From assembly GCA_008477525.1 (NCBI GenBank), contig SPDT01000013.1, positions 1,783,501-1,847,500 of the forward strand: a DNA stretch of 64,000 nt, read 5' to 3'. The first letter of the stretch is position 1. The number at the start of each line of letters is the position of its first letter. The notes beneath the pieces are model-generated. The model was not told the DNA's origin. It searched no databases and saw nothing but the letters and a program-made list of their open reading frames with translations. Shown piece by piece: positions 42,331 to 64,000 of the stretch. The position numbers and the translations under genes are program-made. The stretch is from Hypomyces perniciosus. Taxonomy: Eukaryota > Ascomycota > Sordariomycetes > Hypocreales > Hypocreaceae.

Positions 42331-42670
42331 TACGGAATAGTAGTGATGTGATTACCCCTAAAAATGTAGGTCGGCAATTACCTTAACACATCTAGGCGCG
42401 TATCGCAGACTGACCACTCCGTAAACAATCTAGTTGCCGCCCAATTTCTTTGTATCTGATTCCGCCTAACCGAACAGGATTGTTAGGCAGGGAAAGCGAT
42501 CAATCACATCTTCTACCTTGTAGTTGTGATACAGATAGTATTTATCAGGATAGGAATGGTGACGACAAATGTTTATAGTAGTAGCATCGGTGAAACTCGG
42601 CAATTAGGCCTTTCGTATCTATTGGTACTACTACTATCCTATAGGCAACTATGTTTTAGGGCCAATAAGC

Positions 42671-42703
42671 ATATATTTATGGTTATATCCCTCGCGAATT
42701 CCT
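42671..42703 (+). promoter_or_regulatory. Putative TATA region shared by both precursor genes
   Basis: An ATATATTTATGG-like stretch about 105 bp upstream of the ATG is followed by ATCCCTCGCRAAT. The same arrangement occurs upstream of the second copy (51,634-51,663). Retention in two otherwise diverged promoters suggests a core-promoter role; this is inference. Confidence 0.45.
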
Positions 42704-42779
42704 TCAATATCAGTTCTCTATTCACTGCTTGGCCCAGCTTAACTTACTCTATCAACGACTCCCTCAAAATATCACCAAT

Positions 42780-43034
42780 ATGCGCGGCGCCCTTATTCTA
42801 GCCTTCGCGGTTGCCGCTGCCCAGGCTATTGCCCTGCCTAATAGCCTTGCTGTGAGATTTACTGCTCTTTGTATCCATGTGTCATTGGTTGTCGTCCAAT
42901 ACTAATTGGAGTCAAAGTCCACTAAGGAGAAGCGCCAGAACGCTGCTCCATGGAAGCGTGAGCCTGAACCCGACTCTCCTGCCTGGAAGCGTCAAAATGC
43001 TGCTCCGTGGAAGCGCGAGTCTCCAGAAGAGTGA
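42780..43034 (+). CDS. Secreted kexin-processed peptide precursor, copy A (64 aa)
   Basis: CDS join(42780..42851, 42912..43034) gives 64 residues. Exon 1 encodes a signal peptide (MRGALILAFAVAAAQAIA, likely cleavage AIA-LP). The 60-nt intron has GTGAGA, a TACTAAT branch and an unusual GGAG acceptor; without splicing the frame meets TAA. Exon 2 encodes STKEKR, then QNAAPWKR, EPEPDSPAWKR, QNAAPWKR and a short ESPEE tail. Kex2-type cleavage after KR and carboxypeptidase trimming would release QNAAPW twice and EPEPDSPAW once. The EP-EP start resembles dipeptidyl-aminopeptidase (Ste13-type) spacers. This is the layout of alpha-factor-like pheromone genes and of fungal KEP/dikaritin RiPP precursors. 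The core has no Cys and no Tyr or Phe, so it matches neither the usual Eurotiales alpha-pheromone nor ustiloxin-type cores that I know. Function is unknown. Confidence 0.8.
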
Positions 43035-43128
43035 GCCCTCTCAGCGCTATTTATAAATGACTCGTGAGGGAGAGAGAAACCTAGAGTGGTGTAAAGGCTG
43101 GCTTAAGGGTGAAGATTTAAGGGGCTTG

Positions 43129-43155
43129 GAGGTTTTGGCCTTTTTGTAAAGGAGT
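43129..43155 (+). promoter_or_regulatory. Conserved 3' UTR element (copy A)
   Basis: A 27-nt block (GAGGTTTTGGCC, then T-run, GTAAAGGAGT) starts 95 nt after the stop codon. It is identical, apart from one T, to a block 95 nt after the stop of copy B. CCTTT and AAAGG within it can pair as a short hairpin. AAATAAAT follows about 40 nt downstream. Confidence 0.55.
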
Positions 43156-44390
43156 ATCCCAAGTTGAACATTATGCAAATCCAAATAAATCGGCCATACT
43201 AACAAGTTGGAGCTTTCACTTGGTAAAATTATTAAGTGTTTTTGTGCCGTGATACAGGAACTTGATTACAGGTTTAGAACTCTAGATTTATCACCAAGGA
43301 GTCTATCTCCTTTCGGGTTTTAAGGACGGTGATTACAATATGGTGCGGCTAGCACGCACAGGCATGATGAATTTTAGTACTCTAGCCGTTGGTTAAGTTT
43401 CCAGGCTCAGGGCCGGCTTTCGTATATGCATTGACATGCTTAAGCGCCATACCCATTTACATGGTCTCTCTATCTGATTACCTCTTATTAGTATGAAGAG
43501 ACAAGAGACTGGGTAACTGATGAGGTGTAGTGTATGAAACAGCAATCAAGTGAACTAGACACAGGTATACAACTACAATAGTTTAATGAATGCCTCTATT
43601 CCTGCATACTTAAATAACTAGTGATTTCCATTCTTCTTAACACTACGTAGTCACCAGTCGCCCGTGCCTTGACTTCATATCATCGCGTCGGGCGAGAAGT
43701 CCAACTCACAGCCGTTCAGCCTGGTCAATTACAGAAGCTTAATATGACCCAAACTTAAGACTGCAGGATAGCCTATTCCCTAGAAACACATTATACATCC
43801 CCAATGGGTCGTTCGAAGGGACCAGGACCGCATCCTTGAAACAATGGAGCAATGGTAAATAGTTGGCTAAAATATATTCTTTAAATGAAGTTATGTACTT
43901 GTTGCTAACGTATTTTGTTGGTGACTAGGTGCCCACGCCTTCGGCATGCTATTTCCTAACACCCGAAGATGAAAGGGTTGTAAACTCTCGCTCTTAGCTA
44001 ACACATCAACTGTCTTAGCCCTCGTTGCCAATCTCATTATACGTCCCTTTATAAGACATTGAACTCGCCGTATGAAGCGGAATAGTTGGCTCGTTTAGTG
44101 CTTTCATGAGGGCAGCCAGGAGATCTAGAAACAGAAAACAAATTTTCTAGCTATTTGACCTGACTTCCTACCTCCCTCCCATGATAAACTTCCAGCTCTG
44201 TAGAATCCTCCTCCGCGGTAATCCCATTAACCAAATTCAAACTAGAATTCATATGCCTTGTTCCTTGCATACGGTAGTTGGTTATGGTTAAAAACGTATA
44301 AGCTTGGTTATTGGTCTAATAAGGTACTTCTTTAACACTACAGTACGCCTTCCAGTCCTCCAACGTTACGGTCTTGCTGTTTAATGTATG

Positions 44391-44430
44391 TCTGTGCGTG
44401 TCTGTGCGTGTCTGTGCGTGTCTGTGTGTG
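44391..44430. repeat. 10-bp tandem repeat (TCTGTGCGTG)
   Basis: Four units of TCTGTGCGTG, the last with a substitution, lie in tandem and are followed by a TG-rich and then TA-rich tail. It lies just beyond the right edge of duplication copy A. Confidence 0.85.
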
Positions 44431-44439
44431 TCCGTGTAT

Positions 44440-46529
44440 ATATATTAGTGTGCGCTCTTCGGGTTTAGTTAAATTGCACTTCCTGTAATGCTCACCACAG
44501 ATATCCACATATGCCTTGTGGAGATCAGCGCTACAGTCACAGCCTCTGTTGCTTTTTCTGGGGAAGAGGAAATGAGCCGCCCTGCAGACATTGATTAGCC
44601 AGGTTACGTCGCATTACGTTTCACTGTCGTCTGAAGCATCTATATAGGTACTCTTTGGGCTTGTTTGATATGTACTTCAGCAGCTAAACGCAGACACCGC
44701 TGCTTTCTGCTATCAGGCTCGTACTTTGGCAACGATTGGAATCGCATCTTTCCTCATCTCCCTCAAAGAAATAAGGTGCGGTAGATCTGTCAAGGAGTAT
44801 GTCAAGTCAGACGTAGCATAGGAGTATACGCACATGGTGTACTATTACCTATCATCGGACAACTGGAATTGAACTCACGCAACAGGGCAGCACGAATTTG
44901 ACGCTGGCACGTCACAAGTAGGACACTGATTCCCCTGGTTTCGTTGGATAACAATACCATTCGCACTGCTTCTGACAATTCTTCTTCCACGTATTGCCGC
45001 TAAGATGAAGTCTGTAGTGTGATTGATGTTATTGTATGAAGTGCTCTGACAATATTTTTTCAGTTAGTCACCGTTCAAAGCATGTATCACAGATCTATCC
45101 TTCCTGTCAAAGATGTACATAACAGAGTCGAACTAAAGACTGGGTTACACTAATTTATATCCCTTATTATCCATCCTGAACCGTATCTTCGGTGACTTGC
45201 GGTTAATGCGTCGACTACTTACAGAGCTTATAGGGGGCCATAATTGGAAGTCTGAATAGAGGCTGAACTTGTATATAACCTCCTAGGTATTGATGTTCGT
45301 CTATCTTGAATCGTGTTGCTGACTCGAATCTAAAATATACAGGTTAGGCGTATACTGTACTGTCTAGGCTAATTGCTACAATACATATTACGAGTTTGAT
45401 CTTGACTTTGCTATGTGGGCAAGATATTAAAAGTAGTTATACTGTCTTATCGTGGCCTACTACTTGGAGAGGAGGTGGGTGAGAAATACCCAGGATCTAG
45501 CTGTAGATTTTGTTAATAAATGATATATAGAGAGGAGAAGCGATTAGACCAAGGCTTAACGAAGGGTAAGTCAAAGTACCTAGGTAGTTATTTACAGTAT
45601 ATCACCCTCCCGACTTCGTTAAATAGAAGAAAATCGATATCTTACGAAGCCCCTAAATAGACTAGTACCAAACCAATCATTCCTTCAAGGTAAATAACTG
45701 TCATATAATGCCGGTCTTGTTGTCGGAATAATCAAGGACTGGGTACTCCGTATACGAGGGAGCCTGTTATTGTCTGAGATGTGAGATAAAACGCGCGTCG
45801 TTTCTTGTCTATGATAAAGAAGGCTGGTTTATCAGGGGGAAAGGCACACACACAAACGACACCCACACCCACACCCACCCAAACTTATAAATAAGGCACG
45901 TGGTAGCACGGCTGATAGAACCACGAAGTCGGAGGTACTTATACACAAAGACACTGCGAATCATTTGATAATAATGCCGGCAGCCAGAATAAACAATCAC
46001 TGGCCCTCCAGCTCCTCTGTGGCCGTCACAAGCAAGCTGGGGTCAGGGAATTGAGGGGGAAGAAGATTTATGTGTATTGAACTGAAACTACTTGCTTCTT
46101 TTTATAGCTAACGCCTAAAACAGCCACTTCTGTATTAGGTAGTAGTTATATATCAAGTAGGGTAAAGGAAAAGAAATGTGCGTGGGCTTGGGCATGTAGG
46201 TTAGTCGCGACAAACTGGGAAGGAAACCAATTACGATGGTGAAATTAGGCCAACAGACACAGAACACGGTGTAGTAGAGTAGAAATTTAGGGGCCCAGAA
46301 TGCCTTATTATCGTGATGTGTTCAGACTGACTACGTAGCCGTGTTACGCGACAACAACAGTGGAAATGCATAAAAGTATAACTTCCATAGAGGTAGCCTT
46401 AGATGCATAGCCTGGAATGGCTAGTTGGTAATATATATAGACCGACTAAACAGATACTACTCCGTACTTCGTATTGCATTATAAATTACGATATAGAGTG
46501 GGTTATGGTAGTAGCTATACCGTACTCCG
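44440..46529. other. Non-coding AT-rich spacer
   Basis: No gene is supported; only short chance frames occur. A CACACA / CACACCCACACC tract lies at 45,845-45,885, and TACTCCGTA motifs lie at about 45,745, 46,460 and 46,521. CpA and TpG are present, so this stretch is not RIP-mutated, unlike the LINE to its right. Confidence 0.5.
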
Positions 46530-46555
46530 TAACTACCTATTTATGAATAGTAATC

Positions 46556-46570
46556 ACCCCCAAAAGGGCA
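46556..46570. repeat. Target-site duplication of the LINE, left copy
   Basis: ACCCCCAAAAGGGCA (15 bp) is repeated exactly at 51,295-51,309 and defines the insertion boundaries. Confidence 0.92.
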
Positions 46571-46833
46571 GGATCGTGGAAGCACGCGTATGGAGGAGTT
46601 TTCTCGTGCAAGGTGTTCCTAAATACTACACCGACACCTCAGGCACCTTCCCCACTGACGCGCTAGTCCCGATCGAGGCTCAGGGGAGTGCCAGGTCCAA
46701 GGAACCCCCAGTCTTCTGCCAGAAGGCCCCCTTCAGCAAGACCACCAACACCTGCCACTACTTCATCTCCTTCAGAGAGGAAGTCAAAACAGGCTTCAAA
46801 CTCTTTAACTGCTCAGCCCCAGCAAAGCTCTAG
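46571..46833 (+). pseudogene. Unmutated 5' end of the LINE ORF1
   Basis: This 263-bp stretch remains open and keeps normal CpA content (CACTACTTCATCTCCTTCAG and similar). Its frame ends at a TAG that stands where CAG is expected; beyond that the same frame continues into KAQVTQCNRCLGF, the ORF1 zinc knuckle. It is therefore the surviving piece of ORF1, not an independent gene. The upstream 97 bp that extends this frame leftwards is host DNA outside the element. Confidence 0.75.
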
Positions 46834-49800
46834 ACCTAAAAGGCACAGGTAACCCAATGCAACAGGTGCCTCGGCTTTTATAACCTTTAAGGATACACCA
46901 GAACCGCATAATGCAAAAAGTATAGCAAGCCTGCCTTCTAATACGCCAATAAAGATAGGAACTGTAATAACCTTACTTAATATATTAACTGCCTTAAACT
47001 TTACTAGTCTAACGCTTTAAACTGCTATATACACTTAACTATTAAAGATAGTATAAAAGTGTATACTACTAAAGAATAACTTAAGAGTATCAGAGAACTT
47101 AGGATTTAGGAATTCCAGAAAAGGAACCCTGCCCCCCTTGCCTTTAAACCTAAATCTAGCGCACTTAAGGGAAAAGCTCTTTAGGCCGCTTTAGCTAGAT
47201 CCCCTACTGCTCCCGCTCCTAGGGCCCAGATCTAAAGACCCCTCCCTCTAAGCAGGATAACACCCCCTGCCCCTGCAATAAAGCCCCCCTAAAATAAAAT
47301 TAACTTAATAAATATCTTTAACAGCTTATTAAAAGAAAGCTTACTAGCCTACTCTGCAATAAAGGTTACTGATTTTAACGACTTTATAGATAATGCCTTA
47401 AAGGAATCCTTTAAAAAAGATAAACCCTATAAATCTAACCTATAAATAATAAATACTATTAAAACTATTAAAAAAACTTTAGCTTAAAAATCTTTTAGGT
47501 TAATATAAAAAAAAAGGGAAAGTATTATAATATAGCCTTTTTACTAGCCTAAGAAGATAGCTTTAATATTATATTTATTTAAGAGCTATAAACCTGCTAA
47601 AACGCTATAATATCTAGGAGACAAATAAAATCTTACCCTGGCTTTTAAGCATTTAACTTATTTAATAATTAAAGGGAGACTAAACCCTTTATCTTTATAT
47701 ATATCAGAAAATCACTAAATCTACTATACTAATAACTCTTACCTTTAAAACTAAAAAGCAACTGCATTTACTAAATAAAGGTCTATAGTTATATTATTAT
47801 TAATATTTACTGCAGGGCTTCTTTTAATACTATAACAGAAACCTTTAAAAGGTAAGGTTAGCCCCTTTTAAATTTAATTATCGCAAGAGACTTTAATGTA
47901 TTACATTAAATATAGCAGCTAGGCTAAGTCTTAGATGCTGCAGGTAATAGATTAATTAAATAAGCAGATAAATATAACCTAGTCCCTGCCTTTATAAACG
48001 CCCCTATAAAGGATTCTAGAAAATATATTAACTTTATTTTCTTTAACTGCCCTATATTAATAACTATTGCAAAAAACTTAAATATAGGCTTAAACCACTA
48101 TACAGTTATTATTATACTTTTAAGCCCTACTAGGCTAATAGCCGGTGCAGGAAAGAAATACATCCCTTTTAAAAGCCTATAGGAGTTCAGCCAGCTAATA
48201 TATATATACGCCTAGCTCCTCCCAGAGGTAAATACAACTAACCTAACTAAAGAAAACCTAAATATAGCAGTATAAGTACTCTAGAGACTCTTCGCGGACT
48301 ATATATAGTTAGCAGGCAAAAAAAAATATTAAAATAAATATAGCGCCCCCTAGTAAAATAAAGACTGCCAGACAGCCTACTCGGCTTTTATTGCAGCGCC
48401 CTTTAAAATTAATAAATAGATTAAAGTAAAGAAAATACTATATAATATAGTTAAATGTAAAAAATGCAACTATTAAGATAAAGTTATAGTTAAAGCCAGC
48501 TTAAGCAAGGGCATTTAATAGGTAGTTAAATAATATAAAGCTATAGATTAGTTTTAACCCCCCTTTTTAATAAATAGCGATAAAAGTATTTTAAACTTTA
48601 AGGAGTAAGCGGCCTTTTTTAAAAAATGCCTATTATAGTAAAAAAAAGTAAAAGAAAACATTAAAAACTTATAGGAACCTTAGGTATTAAAAAACCTTTA
48701 AATACTATAAAATAAAACAGTTACTAAAAAAGAGGCAAAAAAGGCTATAATTAAAGCGGGGAATACTATACCTAGCGCAGACAGTATATTAATTACCTTT
48801 TTACACTATATTTAATTTACTATTAAAAAGTTCATTATAAACCTCTTTAAAGGCTGCTTTAAATTAAAATATTACCCCCTCCCTTTTAAAAACATTAAAG
48901 TTACTATTATACCTAAACCCAGTAAACCTAACTATATAACTTATAAAGCTTTTAAACCTATTTTATTACTTTCTTATATAGAAAAAGGCTTTAAAAGGCT
49001 ACTCGCTAAAAGGGTATCCCTTCTAGCATTTAAATATAAAATCCTCTTAAAGCAATACTTTAAAGCCCTCTTTAAAAAAGCAGTTATAGACTTAATTGCC
49101 TGCTTAATTTATAATATTAAAATTGCCTTAAATAAAAGGGAAGTTATAACCCTATTTACCTTTAATATCTTTAAAGCCTTTAATATTATTATAAAAAATA
49201 AACTAGTCCTATAACTTTAATAATAACGCTAGCCTATTTAATTTATAAAATAAGTAAAGTCTTTTATAAATAATAAAACTACTTTTATCTGTAAAGGAGA
49301 TAGGATTAATTTACTAGACCTTACCCTTAAATACAGTACCCTATAAAAGTCCTTTATTTCCTTTATTATATTAATACTATACTTTAACCTAATCCTTTAA
49401 CTTAAAGATTAATAATTTTACTTTAGGTATACTAATAATATTACTATATTTATTATAAATAAATCTACTTAAAAAATAGCTACCTTTATATAATAGGCGC
49501 TTAATAAAATATTAAAGTAAAGAGCAGAGAATATAGTATCCTTTAACTATATTAAAGCTAAATTACTGTATTTCTATTATATAAAAGGCCAGTTATATAA
49601 AAAAGGCATTATAATAAAAGGAAAACCAGTCTAGCTTAAAAAAATATATATAATAGTTAAAGGTCTACTTTAACTTAAAGCTCGCCTTTAAAAAATATAT
49701 AAAGATACTTATAGGCAAAGTATATAAAGTCTTTAACTTCCTTAAATTACTTAATAAAACTTAAAAAGGCTTACCTTTTAAAGCTATAATATAAGCCGTA

Positions 49801-51271
49801 AAGGCCTATATCTTCCTTATTACCCTATATAGGATAAAAGTATAATAGCTAGGGTATAAATAATAATTATAAGCTGACCCTACTAAGCAGGTAAATATAA
49901 AAGTATTTGGTTTAATAGATAAAATAAATAAAGCCTTTAAGGCCGCAGTAAGGGTAGTCCTCCCAGTTTAGAAGACTATAAGTATCCCTATTTTATATAA
50001 AGAGTTAGGTATCCCCCCAGCCAGTATTATCCTAGCCTAGGCCTAACTTAAGTATATAGTAAGATTCGCGGGACTAGATTAAGACTACCTAATCAGTTAA
50101 TATATTAATAAAAAACTTCCTCCCCAGCTACTATAAACTAAACTTTAATACACTACTACCCTAGTTAATAAAACAATTAAACCTATACTCTTCGCTAAAA
50201 AATCCCTATATATTCTCCCTAGTCTTAATTTAAAAGGTATAGGTAAATTAACTGCAGTAAAGAAATACCTAGAAATAGTTAAGTCCCTCCCCCTTTATTT
50301 AATTTTAGCTTACTTTAATAAATCCTAGATTAAAGGGAATATAAGTTAAAGAGCAGTTATTTACTATAAAGTAAAAGTAACTATAAATACTAAACGCCTT
50401 AATAATACAGAGGTCTATAACGCAGAGGCATAGGCCGCCTTAAAGGCTATAAAGCTAGTAGCTAAATATATAAAGGAAGACTACACGATTTAAATAGCCT
50501 TCCTTTTCTTAGATAACTTATTAGTTATCGACAAGCTGCTTAATAAGCCCCCCCTTTTTATATAAAGGGCATATATATATTTCCAGAAACTAGTATAAAG
50601 TATCTCGCCCTGCAAAACCTTTATTTTATAGGTTCCAGGATATAAAGACATTATAGGAAATAAATAAACTAACTGGTTAGCTAAATAAAGTATAGCTTTC
50701 CCCGCTGTATTATAGAACTAGGCTATAATTATATACATTAAAAGATAGACTAAAAAAGAAATCGCAGAGGTAAAGGAGTAAGACTAGCTCAGTAAAACCC
50801 TAGAAAGCTATAAACGATAAAGACTTAAGGCCTTAGCTTCCCCTTTAGAACTCAAACTCCTACGCCCTATCCTCTATAGGCTTTTAATAGAAAAATCGGG
50901 ATATAAAGACTTCTAGGAATACTATAAACGCTTTAGGCATAATAAAGAGTCTATCTATAAATACAGCGAATTAAAAAGATAAAGCCACTTCGCGGAATAC
51001 AGAATAGTTAAGCCTTTCCTCCTAGATATCCCCCTAAAAGAGACCCCCCTCTTTTACTTACTCGGACCTACAGGAAGTAAAGCCTTTTAGAAACTAGTAG
51101 AGGAAGCGGACCCTTATAGCCCTCCCCCGGCGGAAATAGAATAACACTACCCAGATTAACCCTTTTTCCTTTATAAATTGAAACTCAGCGAATAGCGGCA
51201 CAAGCCGCTGGCTCCTAACGTCCTATTGCCCATAAGGGATTTATGTAACTAGCTTACTTAGTGGATGTAAA

Positions 51272-51294
51272 TAATAAAACAAACAAACAAACAA
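51272..51294 (+). repeat. (AAAC)n tail of the LINE
   Basis: AATAAAACAAACAAACAAAC-type repeats stand directly before the right target-site duplication and mark the element's 3' end. Confidence 0.85.
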
Positions 51295-51309
51295 ACCCCC
51301 AAAAGGGCA
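51295..51309. repeat. Target-site duplication of the LINE, right copy
   Basis: This is an exact match to 46,556-46,570. The host sequence on either side (AATAGTAATC before the left copy, TCTCAGTGCTCC after the right) together resembles copy A around 42,330-42,390. The LINE therefore landed inside duplication copy B. Confidence 0.92.
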
Positions 51310-51756
51310 TCTCAGTGCTCCGTACAAGTAGTTTTACTACCTAAACAATTCTAGGCGCTTATGGCAAGCTTACCAAACCATCAAGATAGGTAGTATTGGT
51401 TCGCCCGATTACTACTTCGTATCTACTCGTACGCCGTGTTCCGCTAGTAGTAGCATAGCCAAATGTGACTGCTGGACATAAAATCATATGAATTGTATCT
51501 TTTCCCTTCCGGTTATGATGCAAAGAGGATCTACTATCAGGACAGGAATAGCGCTTACAGCAGTAAGCTATGAAACACGGCAATTAGGCACTTCGTGTCT
51601 ATTAGATTCTAGGCAATTGAGTCTTAAGGCCAGTATATATTCATAGCCACATCCCTCGCAAATACCCTCATTATCATTTCTCTGTATACTCCAGTCACTA
51701 GTACTTAGTTCGGACCAACTCATTCTATCCACTTTCCCCTCTCAAATACCATCAAT

Positions 51757-51952
51757 ATGCGTGGCGCCCTTGTTCTGGCCTTCGCGGTTGCCGCTCAGGC
51801 TATTGCCCTGCCCAATGTCGCTGCTGTAAGACTTGCTGTGCATTATGTTTAAGTGTTGTTGGTTCTCGGCTAATACTGTTCTGGAGTTAAAGCCCACTGA
51901 CTGGAAGCGCGAGGCCAGTAACAGCGACTGGAAGCGCAACTCTTTAGAGTAG
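51757..51952 (+). CDS. Secreted kexin-processed peptide precursor, copy B (44 aa)
   Basis: CDS join(51757..51825, 51887..51952) gives 44 residues. Exon 1 (MRGALVLAFAVAAQAIALPN) is nearly identical to copy A and encodes the signal peptide. The 61-nt intron has GTAAGA, a GGCTAATAC branch and the same GGAG acceptor. Exon 2 holds LKPTDWKR, EASNSDWKR and NSLE. Predicted products after Kex2 and carboxypeptidase action are LKPTDW and EASNSDW; the EA start recalls Ste13-type spacers. Compared with copy A it has two instead of three W-K-R units, and the core sequence is different while the leader, Trp and processing sites are kept. The LINE ends 448 bp upstream of the start and may have cut off distal regulatory DNA. 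Function is unknown. Confidence 0.77.
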
Positions 51953-52046
51953 TAAGTCCTCTGAGTGCTACTGATAAGTAATTCACAAAGGAAAAACTCA
52001 TAGTGGAGATAAGGTTGGCTCAAGAGGTGAAGAGCTAAGTGGCTTA

Positions 52047-52074
52047 GAGGTTTTGGCCTTTTTTGTAAAGGAGT
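52047..52074 (+). promoter_or_regulatory. Conserved 3' UTR element (copy B)
   Basis: This 28-nt block matches 43,129-43,155, again beginning exactly 95 nt after the stop codon, with CCTTT/AAAGG pairing potential and AAATAAAT downstream. Confidence 0.55.
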
Positions 52075-52868
52075 GGCTATCTAGTGCTCCAAGTTAGCCA
52101 TTAAGCAAATACAAATAAATGAGTCACTAAAAAATCTGCCCTGTTATCTAATTTATCTTGCAAAGTATTATTTACTCATGGGGTTTTCTTTCTGCTGTGG
52201 TAGAGGAACCTGATTATATTTGGAGCTTCAGATTTGTCGCTCGTGACTCTGTCCTCCTTAGGATCCAAGTGCTGAGAAGAGTGTTTACAATGACGTGCGG
52301 CTATAATTCGACATGGCGTATTCTCGTATTAGTGGATTCCTAGTCCAGCTATTGTTTCAGTTTCCAGGATCGGTTTATTACATTGCCTCTTTATCGGGTT
52401 GCTTCTTATGGCTATGAATCGATTAAGAGATTGAGCCACTGTTGGGAGGCGCAGTGCATGGAATAGCAATCAAGTGAACAAAACATGGTTATGTCATCTA
52501 TACAAATAGCCACAATGGTCTGAAGAATGCCTCTCTTCCAGGATGCTTGGATGAAAAGTTATTTCTCTCTTTTTTATCACTTAGCCTACCGATCTAGACG
52601 ATGTATGGTCCTGCCTTGACTCTATATTACCGTACCAGGTGAGAAGTTTAATCTAGACATGTTTCATCCCGCTAAATCAGGAGAATATGAACATGAACGA
52701 AAGTGAAGACCACGGGATAGCTTATTTTGTTAGGGTTAAGGTGCCCATACCCTGTTGCCCGTAACTCTTTTGCCCTGGTTATTTGAATACGATAATTGGC
52801 TGTGGTCATGGACATACATGCTTGGTTATTAGTCGAACAAGATGCTTCTACAACGCTCTGGTACAAGC

Positions 52869-54841: not shown

Positions 54842-57800
54842 CAGGGTGGCGATCCATTCCACGTCCATTTCCACGGGCGTCCATTTATGGAAATGGATGG
54901 CCCGTGCATCCATTTCCATCCATTCCATCGCGCCTGCCATTACATAATCCATCCATCCACGGAAGGGTCCCGTGGATGGAAATGGAAGCAGGGGGGGGCT
55001 TAATCATCACCCTAAAATAGTATACTTACCATTGCCCAAGTCAGTGACATCATTACCAGAGACTCCGTGCTTGTTCTACCTGACCCTCCGCCAACATACC
55101 CTATATATCATTGGAAGAGTAGGTAAACGAAACTAAATCTATATGCATTTAATATATAGCTATATAGAGAGAAATGAATCTTATTATATATATTTTAGTA
55201 TATTGCTAGAAAGGCCAACTCTATTCCAATTATAATAAATATCTTTTTTAAAAACTGTATTTATGTACTCCGTAATAACTGTCAGGTTTTCGCATCAAGT
55301 TAAGCTATAAAAATACCTGCATCACTTAGCCTAGTATAAAACTAGAGGGACGCTAAACTTAAGTCACCACTAACAAATCACTATACATTTTGCTCTTACA
55401 TATGTTAGTAGTGATTATGGAAGATTTTTTTTTTTTGGTAGCCAGGAGCGTGGAGATTTCGCGTTCTTAGTTACCGCGTTCAGGCGCGTTGAACTTCTAT
55501 TAGGAGAAAGGGTTTTATGTACTTCGTATATGAATTTTTTATTAATGGAATCGCCATAAGCATAATTTATTAACCCTATGCATCCTCAGATACAGGCCCA
55601 GGAGGACCAGGAGAACCTGTGGGACCTTTTCCCTTGGAAATACTTCCCTGGGTATACTCAATCCCAGCGTTGCGCATCCATATCGTCATGGATATGGCAA
55701 TTCGGTTACGATATCGAGAAGAGCGACGATGATACAAAGCGGCGATGGGTTTGCAAGGTCTGCGTAAAGAGTAGTAAGCAAAAACCTCACTCGACTGCCT
55801 CGAATGGCACACAGAACGCAGAGATCCACCTCTGGACCGACCACAGTATCTGGGATCCTTCAGGCAGGCGGAAGCCGCCAAGTAAAGCAAAAGAGAATAC
55901 GTCATCAAGGAATATCGCCGAGATGATGAAGCTGAACACATATAACTCGCGAGAACAGCAGATTGCCAACCAGATCATCGGCCGTTTTGATCGATTAGCC
56001 TTCCAGCGCTTGGTAGTCTGTTGGATCATCAACAGTAATTCCTCCTTCCGACAAAGCGAAGATCCGTACCTCCGCGCAGTTTTCGAGTACCTCAATCCCC
56101 TCGTGAAGACGACCGAGGCACATATCACCCACGATACCGTTCGCAGACGCATCCTTAAGGTGTACGAAGAAAACATAGAGGAAATAAAGCGAGTGTTGGC
56201 GGCAGCCCCAGGGCTGATTCACATAGCGTTCGATGGCTGGAGGTCGAATAATCGCCATGCTCTATATGGAATCGTTTGCTATTTTCTTGATACCGTTGGC
56301 CAGCCACAAAAACTTGTCCTTGGACTTCCAGAGCTTGTCGATCGTCATTCTGGGGAGAATATTGCTGCTCATGTTGTCGATATCCTTCGGAGCTATGATA
56401 TAACCCAGAAGGTCGGATACTTTACACTTGATAACGCCAGCAACAACGATACAGCGATGAAGGAAATCGGAAAAGCGCTGGGCTTTAAGGGAGAAACCCG
56501 GCGATTACGCTGCTTTGGCCATATCCTTAATCTTGCTGTTAAAGCGCTGCTTTTTGGCCATGACTCTGAGGCATTTGAGGATGATATCCTTGGAAATGAG
56601 GCGCTTAATGCGAAGGCCCATGAGATGTGGAGACGGAAAGGCCCTATTGGGAAACTCCATAACCTTGTCGTTTGGATTCATCGTTCAGACTTACTAACTA
56701 ATCTCCTTCGGTCTCTTCAGTTGGTCGCGTTCGAGAAGTCTGAGGATCCGACAATACAAGCAAAAAAGCCTCTAGATGTCATTACTGATGTGGTAACTCG
56801 TTGGCTTTCTACTCTTTACATGATCCGACGCGCTCTTCTCCTGAAGGACTTCCTTGAAGAACTCTGGTATAGGCAGAAAAACGAGTGGGAAGGGTCAATT
56901 TTAAGGGGAAAGAAGTCGAGGAGTGAAATGCCACTTTGTCTCAGGGATGACAACAAACTCGATGAGAAGGATTGGAATATTATCGCTCTTTTTAACGAGG
57001 TCCTCCAACATTTTGAGCATGTTTTAATTACCCTTGAAGGTGACGGTCGACAGCGGATGCGAAAGTATGGCTATACTAAAGCATATGGATGCTCTTGGGA
57101 TCTTATGTTTGGCTACGAGTACCTGCTTAATAAAATGGAGGTATATAAGGCCGCTGCTCATCGATATCCCGACCCTGAGCACTTCAAGGTCAATATTAAT
57201 CTCTGCTGGAAGAAACTTGATGAGTACTACTCGCGGCTTGATGAGACACCGGTCTATTATGCAGCTGTCGCGCTTCATCCAGCATATCGTTGGGGATACT
57301 TTGAGGACATATGGGCAGATCGCCCAGAATGGATCCAGACTGCAAAGTCCCTTGTGGAGGGGCTGTATAGGTCTCAATACGATCCGCAGGTCGTTTCTCG
57401 AGACCGAGAACCGGTTATGAAGAAGCAGCGAACTTATCGAAATCCCTTCAACGAGTACTGCGAGGAGTCTCGTCAGGCGCCGGCATTATTACAGTCGCCA
57501 TTCACTCCTGCTTCGTCAGCTGTGGGAGATGAATATAACGATTGGTTTCGAGACGTACATAAATCGGATCAGAGGATCCTGGATCCCATCAGCTATTGGT
57601 GCGACAGACGGGAGGAATATCCTCGCCTATCACGGATGGCCCTTGATGTTCTTTCTACTCTTCCAATGTCTGCTGACGTTGAGAGACTTTTCTCTACGGC
57701 CGGCAGAATGGTTCGAGATGACCGGGCAAATCTGGATGCTAGTACAATTGGAATGACGCAGACGGTGAGATCGTGGCTTCGTGGGGGATATATTCGAAGT

Positions 57801-58259
57801 GTGGAGAAGCTTCTTGAAGAGGTTGAGTTATCGGATACCGATCCGCTTGCCGAACTGAGCTTTATAGAAGCTCGTGAAGTAACAGGTGGGCGAATTGTAT
57901 GTACTATCCCTCTCTAGACTTTATTTATAGCGCACTGGCTAGAGCCTGGGCTCATTAAGAAAGTGCTTGTTTTAATTATGTATAATAAGAGAGATATCCT
58001 GTATAATGAATTTTGTTGCTTGGTGATCATTGAGATGGTTACAGTGACTGTGGTGAGTACTATATATAGTAACTAATCTATTAGCGCGATACCTTTCCTA
58101 TTTAGGTAACCCCATCCACGCATCCATTTCCATTTCCATCCATTCCATGCGACTGCTCTGGGCGTCCATTCCACCCATTCCACTGCACGTTGACTGAAAT
58201 GGACGTCCATCCACTCAGCTAAGGCTGCGTGGATGGAAATGGAATGGATCGCCAGCCTG
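54842..58259 (+). mobile_element. Intact hAT DNA transposon with terminal inverted repeats
   Basis: The 3.4-kb element is bounded by CAGGGTGGCGATCCATTCCA on the left and its inverse on the right (one mismatch in 20). CAGG- ends are typical of hAT elements. Both ends carry dense subterminal copies of ATCCATTTCC / GGAAATGGAT (54,850-54,985 and 58,110-58,250), probable transposase-binding sites. Inside is an uninterrupted transposase ORF. The element is not RIP-mutated although its neighbours are, suggesting late arrival or single-copy status. The expected 8-bp target-site duplication is not visible: the flanks are GTAGTTAC and ACAGGGGG. Confidence 0.88.
55578..57917 (+). CDS. hAT-family transposase (779 aa, uninterrupted)
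   Basis: It catalyses cut-and-paste transposition of the surrounding element. A BED-type zinc finger is visible (Cys59-x2-Cys62, His84-x4-His89 within WVCKVC...EIHLWTDH). The RNase H-like core follows: Asp219 in AFDGWRSNNRHALYG, Asp285 in FTLDNASNND, and a TRWLSTLYMIRRA motif. The alpha-helical insertion leads to Glu702 in MSADVERLFSTAGRM, the catalytic Glu inside the hAT C-terminal dimerisation region (RMALDVLSTLP). Full length and all catalytic residues present mean it could be active. It is intronless, and the start is the first ATG of the open frame, about 0.74 kb from the left end. Confidence 0.92.
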   Translation: MHPQIQAQEDQENLWDLFPWKYFPGYTQSQRCASISSWIWQFGYDIEKSDDDTKRRWVCKVCVKSSKQKPHSTASNGTQNAEIHLWTDHSIWDPSGRRKPPSKAKENTSSRNIAEMMKLNTYNSREQQIANQIIGRFDRLAFQRLVVCWIINSNSSFRQSEDPYLRAVFEYLNPLVKTTEAHITHDTVRRRILKVYEENIEEIKRVLAAAPGLIHIAFDGWRSNNRHALYGIVCYFLDTVGQPQKLVLGLPELVDRHSGENIAAHVVDILRSYDITQKVGYFTLDNASNNDTAMKEIGKALGFKGETRRLRCFGHILNLAVKALLFGHDSEAFEDDILGNEALNAKAHEMWRRKGPIGKLHNLVVWIHRSDLLTNLLRSLQLVAFEKSEDPTIQAKKPLDVITDVVTRWLSTLYMIRRALLLKDFLEELWYRQKNEWEGSILRGKKSRSEMPLCLRDDNKLDEKDWNIIALFNEVLQHFEHVLITLEGDGRQRMRKYGYTKAYGCSWDLMFGYEYLLNKMEVYKAAAHRYPDPEHFKVNINLCWKKLDEYYSRLDETPVYYAAVALHPAYRWGYFEDIWADRPEWIQTAKSLVEGLYRSQYDPQVVSRDREPVMKKQRTYRNPFNEYCEESRQAPALLQSPFTPASSAVGDEYNDWFRDVHKSDQRILDPISYWCDRREEYPRLSRMALDVLSTLPMSADVERLFSTAGRMVRDDRANLDASTIGMTQTVRSWLRGGYIRSVEKLLEEVELSDTDPLAELSFIEAREVTGGRIVCTIPL

Positions 58260-63410: not shown

Positions 63411-64000
63411 TTAAAATAACGAGGTTATACTGAACCTCATTTATGTATGGCTTCTAGGAAGCTGCATACAACGCAGCAATAAGGAAACGACTGAGAGTCT
63501 AGTTGGGTTAACAATGGATGAACAATTGAATTGTAACTGAACTAATAGCTAGAAAGCTATAGAATATCTAGTGATGTGCGGCTGGTGTAGAAGTGATTGT
63601 ATAAACAATAGCTTTGTCTTCTATAATAGTCCTCCGACTAGACAATAGGAATGCGGCGGCAGAATTGGGTTTATGGCCCCATTCCTATTTTCCGCAAAAT
63701 TCATTTATATGGGAAATCGTCCAAATCGACTCACGGCCATACAAACAGGAAACCATTTTAGTCAGATTTTTCACAATAGCCATTATGGCTATTGTATTGA
63801 GTCTAGGGTAGGCGGGGTAGCTGGTCCTAGCTCAATTGTTATCGTTGAAGATAACAGAAATTTCCCGACTTACACCAAAGTTCCTCTAGGGACTCGGTCC
63901 TAGCGTCGGGCCTAATTCAGGGTTTAGCCAGAATAGGAAGGTTACCTAAATACACTGAAATCTTTACTTTTTAGCCCTCCTTTTTAACACTCCCTCTGGA
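63411..64000. other. Non-RIPed right edge of the window
   Basis: Base composition returns to normal. Two short overlapping ATG frames (63,614-63,811; 63,673-63,903) have no recognisable features, and no gene is called. Confidence 0.45.

Follow-up and report, generated by a model that had tools for sequence, protein, structure and literature searches.

The analysed window comprises 64,000 nucleotides of contig C14 (C14:1783501-1847500) from a fungal genome of 44.0 Mb in 23 contigs, and it holds two small genes, here called gene A and gene B, each made of two exons and each encoding a signal-peptide-like leader that is followed by in-frame segments ending in Trp-Lys-Arg (W-K-R), three of them in gene A and two in gene B. 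A third gene of this kind, gene C, is located on the same contig (C14:1874232-1874525), 39 kb past gene B and 27 kb past the window. An earlier note on this DNA had proposed genes A and B as paralogous, kexin-type repeat precursors with variable cores and a fixed W-K-R end; our analysis, in which the exon limits of all three genes were set by splice enumeration, confirms the two genes with their three and two units, and the variable cores as well as the proposed nature of the precursors are supported by the sequence. The finding is real and it is richer than the note had it: there are three genes, an alpha-factor layout, and repeat differences that are synonymous only.

The introns of genes A and B begin with GT, end with AG and contain a CTAAT motif that resembles a branch site, and they lie in phase 0 at the homologous place, as had been stated; when the intron stays unspliced, an in-frame stop closes the frame of either gene. 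With gaps excluded, the two genes are identical at 61 of 69 positions in exon 1, at 42 of 60 in the intron and at 44 of 71 in exon 2, next to 120 of 164 in the upstream flank and 117 of 160 in the downstream flank, i.e. relative to the flanks the leader exon is more conserved and the cores are less so, and the claim of a shared leader stands. By a plain hydropathy measure, the best 11-mer of the putative leaders scores 2.72 in A, 2.49 in B and 2.43 in C, and small-x-small cleavage-like sites occur in all three. Both genes of the window are contained in a longer duplication (Table 1), and a further duplicated piece is found at 44246-44346 against 52763-52864, likewise under lenient BLAST scoring. 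A Pfam scan of A and B returned no match over the cut-off, and a bacterial-type promoter scan was uninformative.

Gene C surfaced in a genome-wide search for paired W-K-R units (two units, 10-37 nt apart), where the pattern gave seven matches, more than expected by chance, against one for the reversed pattern that served as control; two of the seven fall in A, one in B and two in C, i.e. five lie inside about 48 kb of one contig. Its product reads MRSIALIALMAAAQVVALPTILT, IKR EAEAEAGPPGRDW KR EAEAGPPGRDW KR EAEAGPPGRDW KR EAEAGPPGRDW stop: four units of the form Lys-Arg-(Glu-Ala)2-3-GPPGRDW, with every KR preceding EAEA or EAEAEA and with the final unit closing at Trp-stop without KR. The intron of gene C, 57 nt in length, also lies in phase 0 at the homologous place, so that the three genes have one common exon plan, and in the alignment of A, B and C the TATATA and TCCCTC blocks upstream are present at gene C as well. 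In lenient blastn, gene C covers positions 42663-42992 of A (pairwise E 6e-14) and 51632-51893 of B (pairwise E 4e-12), the alignment spanning exon 1 and the upstream region; on these sequence grounds, the three genes likely share descent. A plasmid tblastn with gene C was uninformative.

Table 1. Positions of the features in the window, counted from its first letter.
Feature	Position	Strand	Remarks
Duplicated segment, copy 1 (gene A)	42379..43777	+	against 51338-52726: 61.6% identity, 1513 aligned columns, lenient BLAST scoring
Upstream region of gene A	42663..42779	+	TATATA and TCCCTC blocks in common with B and C
Gene A, total span	42780..43034	+	two exons
Gene A, exon 1	42780..42851	+	signal-peptide-like; MRGALILAFAVAAAQAIALPNSLA
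Gene A, intron	42852..42911	+	phase 0, 60 nt; GTGAGA...CTAAT...GGAG; splicing predicted from sequence and homology
Gene A, exon 2	42912..43034	+	SKSTKEKR, QNAAPWKR, EPEPDSPAWKR, QNAAPWKR, ESPEE, stop
AT-rich stretch between A and B	46474..51200	.	RIP-like bias, outside the genes
Duplicated segment, copy 2 (gene B)	51338..52726	+	
Gene B, total span	51757..51952	+	two exons
Gene B, exon 1	51757..51825	+	signal-peptide-like; MRGALVLAFAVAAQAIALPNVAA
Gene B, intron	51826..51886	+	phase 0, 61 nt; GTAAGA...CTAAT...GGAG; splicing predicted
Gene B, exon 2	51887..51952	+	LKPTDWKR, EASNSDWKR, NSLE, stop

The remaining pattern counts, again over the whole genome, add no evident further member among the matches inspected. 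The two paired matches elsewhere were rejected: on C9, a long frame contains just one in-frame W-K-R, and on C10, two in-frame W-K-R share a frame of 28 codons that lacks a leader. KREAEA occurs seven times (control: three), four times in the units of gene C and three times in unrelated frames, and an Asp-Trp-dibasic pattern gives four matches (control: one), with B matched once, C twice and an unrelated place once. A loosened W-K-R pattern is near background (42 matches against 34 in the control); five of its matches are A, B and C, and 25 were inspected, among which seven have two W-K-R in a short frame with no evident hydrophobic leader within the frame. The weak protein match to A at C4:898858 (E 0.18) was set aside, with no W-K-R repeat there. 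The loosened pattern also picked up near-identical TGGAAAAGAACGCAGGCC...TGGAAGCG matches at C3:21776, C9:1140467, C12:6270 and C16:27214; three of these four are less than 30 kb from the contig start, which suggests a repeat family near contig ends.

The differences between repeats within a gene are all silent. The two QNAAPWKR copies of gene A differ at four sites (four synonymous, none non-synonymous), and the four GPPGRDW units of gene C vary at three sites (3/3 synonymous); without selection, the chance of such an outcome is about 0.003 for A and about 0.017 for C at kappa 2, in a calculation that assumes independent differences, an assumption that conversion between repeats could upset. 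Taken from the sequence, these seven differences look as under purifying selection. The W-K-R codons are TGG-AAG-CGT or TGG-AAG-CGC in all eight units of A, B and C, with Trp directly before the dibasic site in each of the eight, to which gene C adds its terminal W-stop. These observations bear on the possibility that the genes are relics, i.e. decaying copies without a product, as the shortness of gene B, with its two units, and the degraded surroundings might suggest; against this, open frames, splice signals and W-K-R are kept in all three genes, although the identity between A and B is no more than about 70-73% in introns and flanks, and the repeat differences are wholly synonymous, so we regard relics as very unlikely.

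In the maturation of yeast alpha-factor, Kex2 cuts after KR, Kex1 removes the K and R, and Ste13 removes EA and EP pairs. In gene C, which shows the alpha-factor layout most clearly of the three, the (EA)n run behind KR is the Ste13 motif known from alpha-factor precursors, and XA or XP pairs also follow KR in gene A (EPEP, at one KR out of the three standing before a W-K-R unit) and in gene B (EA, at its sole such KR). Genes A, B and C thus probably represent one family of secreted precursors that are processed like yeast alpha-factor, with products that are likely to be linear extracellular signals; the best reading is that these products would be linear peptides, processed by Kex2, Kex1 and Ste13 and left with a free Trp at the C-terminus, rather than modified RiPPs (ribosomally synthesised and post-translationally modified peptides). 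Splicing, secretion, cleavage, trimming and any signalling role are what we infer here from features that are read in the DNA itself, i.e. gene structure, the layout of KR and (EA)n, likely shared descent and the synonymous-only repeat differences. The leader would target the precursor for secretion, a Kex2-type protease would cut after KR, a Kex1-type carboxypeptidase would remove K and R to leave a free C-terminal Trp, and a Ste13-type dipeptidyl aminopeptidase would remove the N-terminal EA or EP pairs.

The predicted products are GPPGRDW, four per molecule, from gene C; QNAAPW, two per molecule and perhaps with pyroglutamate, and DSPAW or EPEPDSPAW from gene A; and SNSDW or EASNSDW from gene B. 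The bare final Trp of gene C suggests the end point of the mature peptide, and the closing of the last unit right after Trp is expected if KR is a mere processing site. The earlier note had also named LKPTDW as a core of gene B, which does not hold: there is no KR to its left, so that its N-terminus is not fixed and it is not to be named as a core. The peptides would most likely act as linear extracellular signals, from fungus to fungus or on organisms of other kinds, and their Trp end, often preceded by Asp, would be the fixed part that is recognised.

Several observations weigh against this interpretation. Exon 2 of A and B (44/71) has diverged more than the flanks, and the changes in exon 1 between the two genes are five non-synonymous and three synonymous (one Ala codon of A omitted), so that the leader is not strongly constrained. 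The unspliced intron of gene C leaves the frame open, and the splicing of this gene hence rests on homology. In the genome protein searches, A missed C, while C matched C alone and missed A and B; the genome DNA search with A gave A and B only, without C; because these searches failed to link them, it is the common exon plan and the pairwise alignments that carry the kinship of C with the other two genes. Asp does not precede Trp in QNAAPW and DSPAW. A search of a database of 5.8 billion proteins with A gave four candidates, none at E <= 10, and a search with an A-B-C profile gave no significant homologue (best E 4.8 and 9.8). Lastly, gene B, with two units, is below the three-repeat threshold of the KEPs (Kex2-processed repeat proteins), which are defined in the sections of PMC6339444 drawn on here by an N-terminal signal peptide and at least three similar repeats parted by KR, RR or KK; gene C has four near-identical units, and the three W-K-R units of gene A are of two kinds.

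The genome has a Ste2 receptor gene (C4:909483-910416; two exon matches, best E 5e-78). Among the 84 proteins listed for it, the best named ones are from Cladobotryum mycophilum (61% identity) and Trichoderma species (51-58%), against 34% for Penicillium steckii and 29% for Talaromyces islandicus in the Eurotiales; since Ste2 matches best in Hypocreales, the Eurotiales setting in which the earlier note had placed the genes falls away. The presence of Ste2 raises the question of whether these genes encode the alpha-type mating pheromone of the species, with GPPGRDW (or a sister peptide) as the Ste2 ligand replacing a Cys-containing pheromone. Gene C repeats KR-(EA)n-core, as ascomycete alpha-type pheromone precursors do, and three pattern searches of the whole genome turned up no standard alpha-pheromone: WC...GQ.C gave five matches (control: five), WC...G[QE].CW one (control: none), and the second pattern, when one mismatch was allowed, 13 (control: six); these counts are close to the controls, and none of the matches is in a frame where dibasic sites recur at regular intervals, though a standard gene that is intron-split, diverged beyond one mismatch or unassembled would escape these patterns. 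One right-looking match, WCYLPGQVC at C3:3541637, was rejected, as it overlaps the long open frame of a different protein.

The alpha-pheromones of ascomycetes have a Cys-containing core (WC..GQxC or WC..PCW). The units found here (GPPGRDW, QNAAPW, EPEPDSPAW, EASNSDW) do not match it; the core of gene C has seven residues without a Cys pair, and the cores of A and B differ. A C-terminal PCW motif, to which the core is unlike, is described for Sordariomycete alpha-pheromones in the relevant part of PMC6339444. A role of the family as the mating pheromone therefore appears improbable in the extreme, though marginally easier to entertain than the RiPP reading considered next.

Dikaritin precursors (ustiloxin, phomopsin, asperipin) are also secreted, kexin-cut repeat proteins, and the cores could accordingly be imagined as cyclised in trans by UstYa-like enzymes, given the KEP layout and the 17 exon-level UstYa matches of the genome (E <= 0.001; contigs C4, C7, C8 and C23). 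None of these 17 matches is on contig C14, which agrees with the absence of tailoring enzymes nearby that had been noted from the window, and the cores contain no Tyr or Phe; the (EA)n motif, moreover, suits linear, alpha-factor-like peptides. UstYa-type (DUF3328) genes, where they accompany KEP genes, are on average 3.09 genes away, according to the part of PMC7329392 used here. A dikaritin-type origin is the hardest of the alternatives to credit, and the reading that we retain is that of linear peptides whose C-terminal Trp is free.

The closest known counterparts occur in Basidiomycota. As given in the portions of PMC9769878 used here, many basidiomycete KEPs combine Ste13 motifs with a C-terminal Trp. 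Coprinopsis KEP 490115, expressed in Pichia, is cut at RR and loses XA/XP to give QYKAPSW, pyro-QYKAPSW and QMRPPSW; Pleurotus KEP 1091723/1439342, precursors with Ste13 motifs, give SGVAADW in two Pleurotus species; Lentinula KEP 2599 gives SGTGEASAADW, detected in shiitake, so that the Lentinula and Pleurotus peptides have the -AADW end in common; and Coprinopsis KEP 447393 gives GPPAPSW from a non-repetitive C-terminus, found in culture fluid. The same portions report no visible phenotype for knockouts of six Coprinopsis kep genes. XSDW is a conserved KEP repeat motif in Basidiomycota, where Ste13 motifs were described as unexpected (PMC6339444, in part). EASNSDW of gene B fits this motif, and B also has TDW and C has RDW; the units of gene A differ, ending in PW and AW, and the genes here are of an ascomycete. 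The C-terminal-Trp KEPs of Agaricomycetes resemble our genes in the signal peptide (putative here), in the dibasic sites and in short linear peptides (predicted here) with a -DW or -PSW end, and the Pleurotus precursors and KEP 490115 also have XA/XP pairs after the dibasic site; the difference is that peptides have been detected there, in Basidiomycota, while here three hypocrealean paralogues are known from DNA alone, and the likeness is one of layout.

The two best profile matches have a comparable layout: P0085 from Tricholomella constricta has EASNRDWRR next to EASNSDWKR of gene B (E 4.8, not significant), and P0086, an environmental protein, EAEAEAFGGGDRDWKR, reads KR-ISQDW-KR-EAEAEA-FGGGDRDW-KR-EPVSQDW-KR with a KDW end (E 9.8, not significant); a Pfam scan of both gave no match. 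Both were retrieved by the same motif words, and as their likeness is one of layout, common descent with the mushroom KEPs is not proven. A literature text search had no match for QNAAPW or GPPGRDW, although the supplementary tables of KEP surveys may still list the family; by title, it gave no fungal-peptide paper for DWKR and no further literature on C-terminal-Trp KEPs or SDW/Kex2 peptides in Hypocreales or Ascomycota. The three-gene family is absent from the sections of PMC7099791 drawn on here, and PMC7329392, in part, counts 7878 KEPs, 2560 of them without a homologue.

With respect to the surroundings, the DNA to the left of the genes is gene-rich, the frames scanned there including a histone-chaperone-like protein, RhoGEF, WD40/F-box and Snf7 proteins, a 2OG-Fe(II) oxygenase, a metallo-beta-lactamase-fold protein and a DUF3292 protein. 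From about 45 kb onward, GC drops and dinucleotide indices begin that resemble those of repeat-induced point mutation (RIP), such index values being taken to mean RIP. In four 1-kb bins from 47 to 51 kb, TpA/ApT is 1.61-1.74 and (CpA+TpG)/(ApC+GpT) is 0.28-0.59; the AT-rich stretch between A and B, with GC in 1-kb bins as low as 0.24, is probably a decayed transposable element, presumably a retroelement. A (CAAA)n run is found just outside it, near 51280-51295, and a hAT-family transposase with an open 779-aa frame (55578-57917, plus strand; Dimer_Tnp_hAT, E 2.5e-14) lies 3.6 kb downstream of B.

From 58000 to the end of the window at 64000, and over a further 23 kb of the contig, the DNA is AT-rich, RIP-like and poor in open reading frames (ORFs), with 1-kb bins at GC 0.16-0.39; in the bins 59-87 kb from the window start, TpA/ApT is 1.29-1.76 and (CpA+TpG)/(ApC+GpT) is 0.22-0.87. 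Scanned as four 10-kb stretches, with frames that cross stretch ends left out, the 40 kb beyond the window contain as frames of at least 100 aa that of gene C, one of 130 aa lying 1.7 kb upstream of the gene, and two of low complexity. Beyond the AT-rich stretch, a small island of higher GC (4 kb, 42-48% GC) has gene C at its right edge. About 2.2 kb downstream of gene C (L021:9220-9606), simple-sequence DNA carries a low-complexity frame with long Leu runs, and Ile/Ala runs on the opposite strand.

This location has a bearing on what the peptides may act upon. RIP-like compartments are typical of fast-evolving secreted effectors, and Cladobotryum, the nearest named source of Ste2 among the 84 proteins listed, has a fungicolous lifestyle. 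Genes A and B at the edge of, and gene C inside, an AT-rich, ORF-poor, RIP-like stretch, together with cores that diverge among the paralogues, make it conceivable that the peptides act in an effector-like manner on a host or prey organism. The repeat of MiSSP8 from Laccaria is DWRR. MiSSP8 is itself a repeat KEP and is required for mycorrhization (PMC7329392, in part), its motif occurring in saprotrophs too (PMC7105643, in part). The repeats within A and C differ synonymously only, however, and the similar mushroom peptides have no known effector role; an effector-like function is thus possible but rather unlikely, and an alpha-factor-like, linear signal remains the reading that we prefer.

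The designation of the genes as a candidate new family holds insofar as they form a distinctive ascomycete set; it does not hold for the kind of peptide, which is already described in Basidiomycota (PMC9769878 and PMC6339444, in part). The set is an ascomycete one of a kind known from mushrooms, and not a new class. Its distinctive features are its position beside and within RIP-like, gene-poor DNA, and a genome that has Ste2 and in which a standard alpha-pheromone was not found by patterns. As a remote possibility, short linear peptides that end in a free Asp-Trp or Trp might be a signalling language shared across Dikarya, which this fungus would use as a signal of its own, replacing the standard alpha-pheromone, or, if it lives on mushrooms as its nearest sampled relative does, towards its host or prey. 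An ascomycete with three paralogues and Ste2 provides a second lineage for the synthesis, receptor-activation tests and genetic removal of such peptides, and the three genes suggest that kexin-type peptide genes can sit beside or within RIP-like DNA with their peptides kept unchanged.

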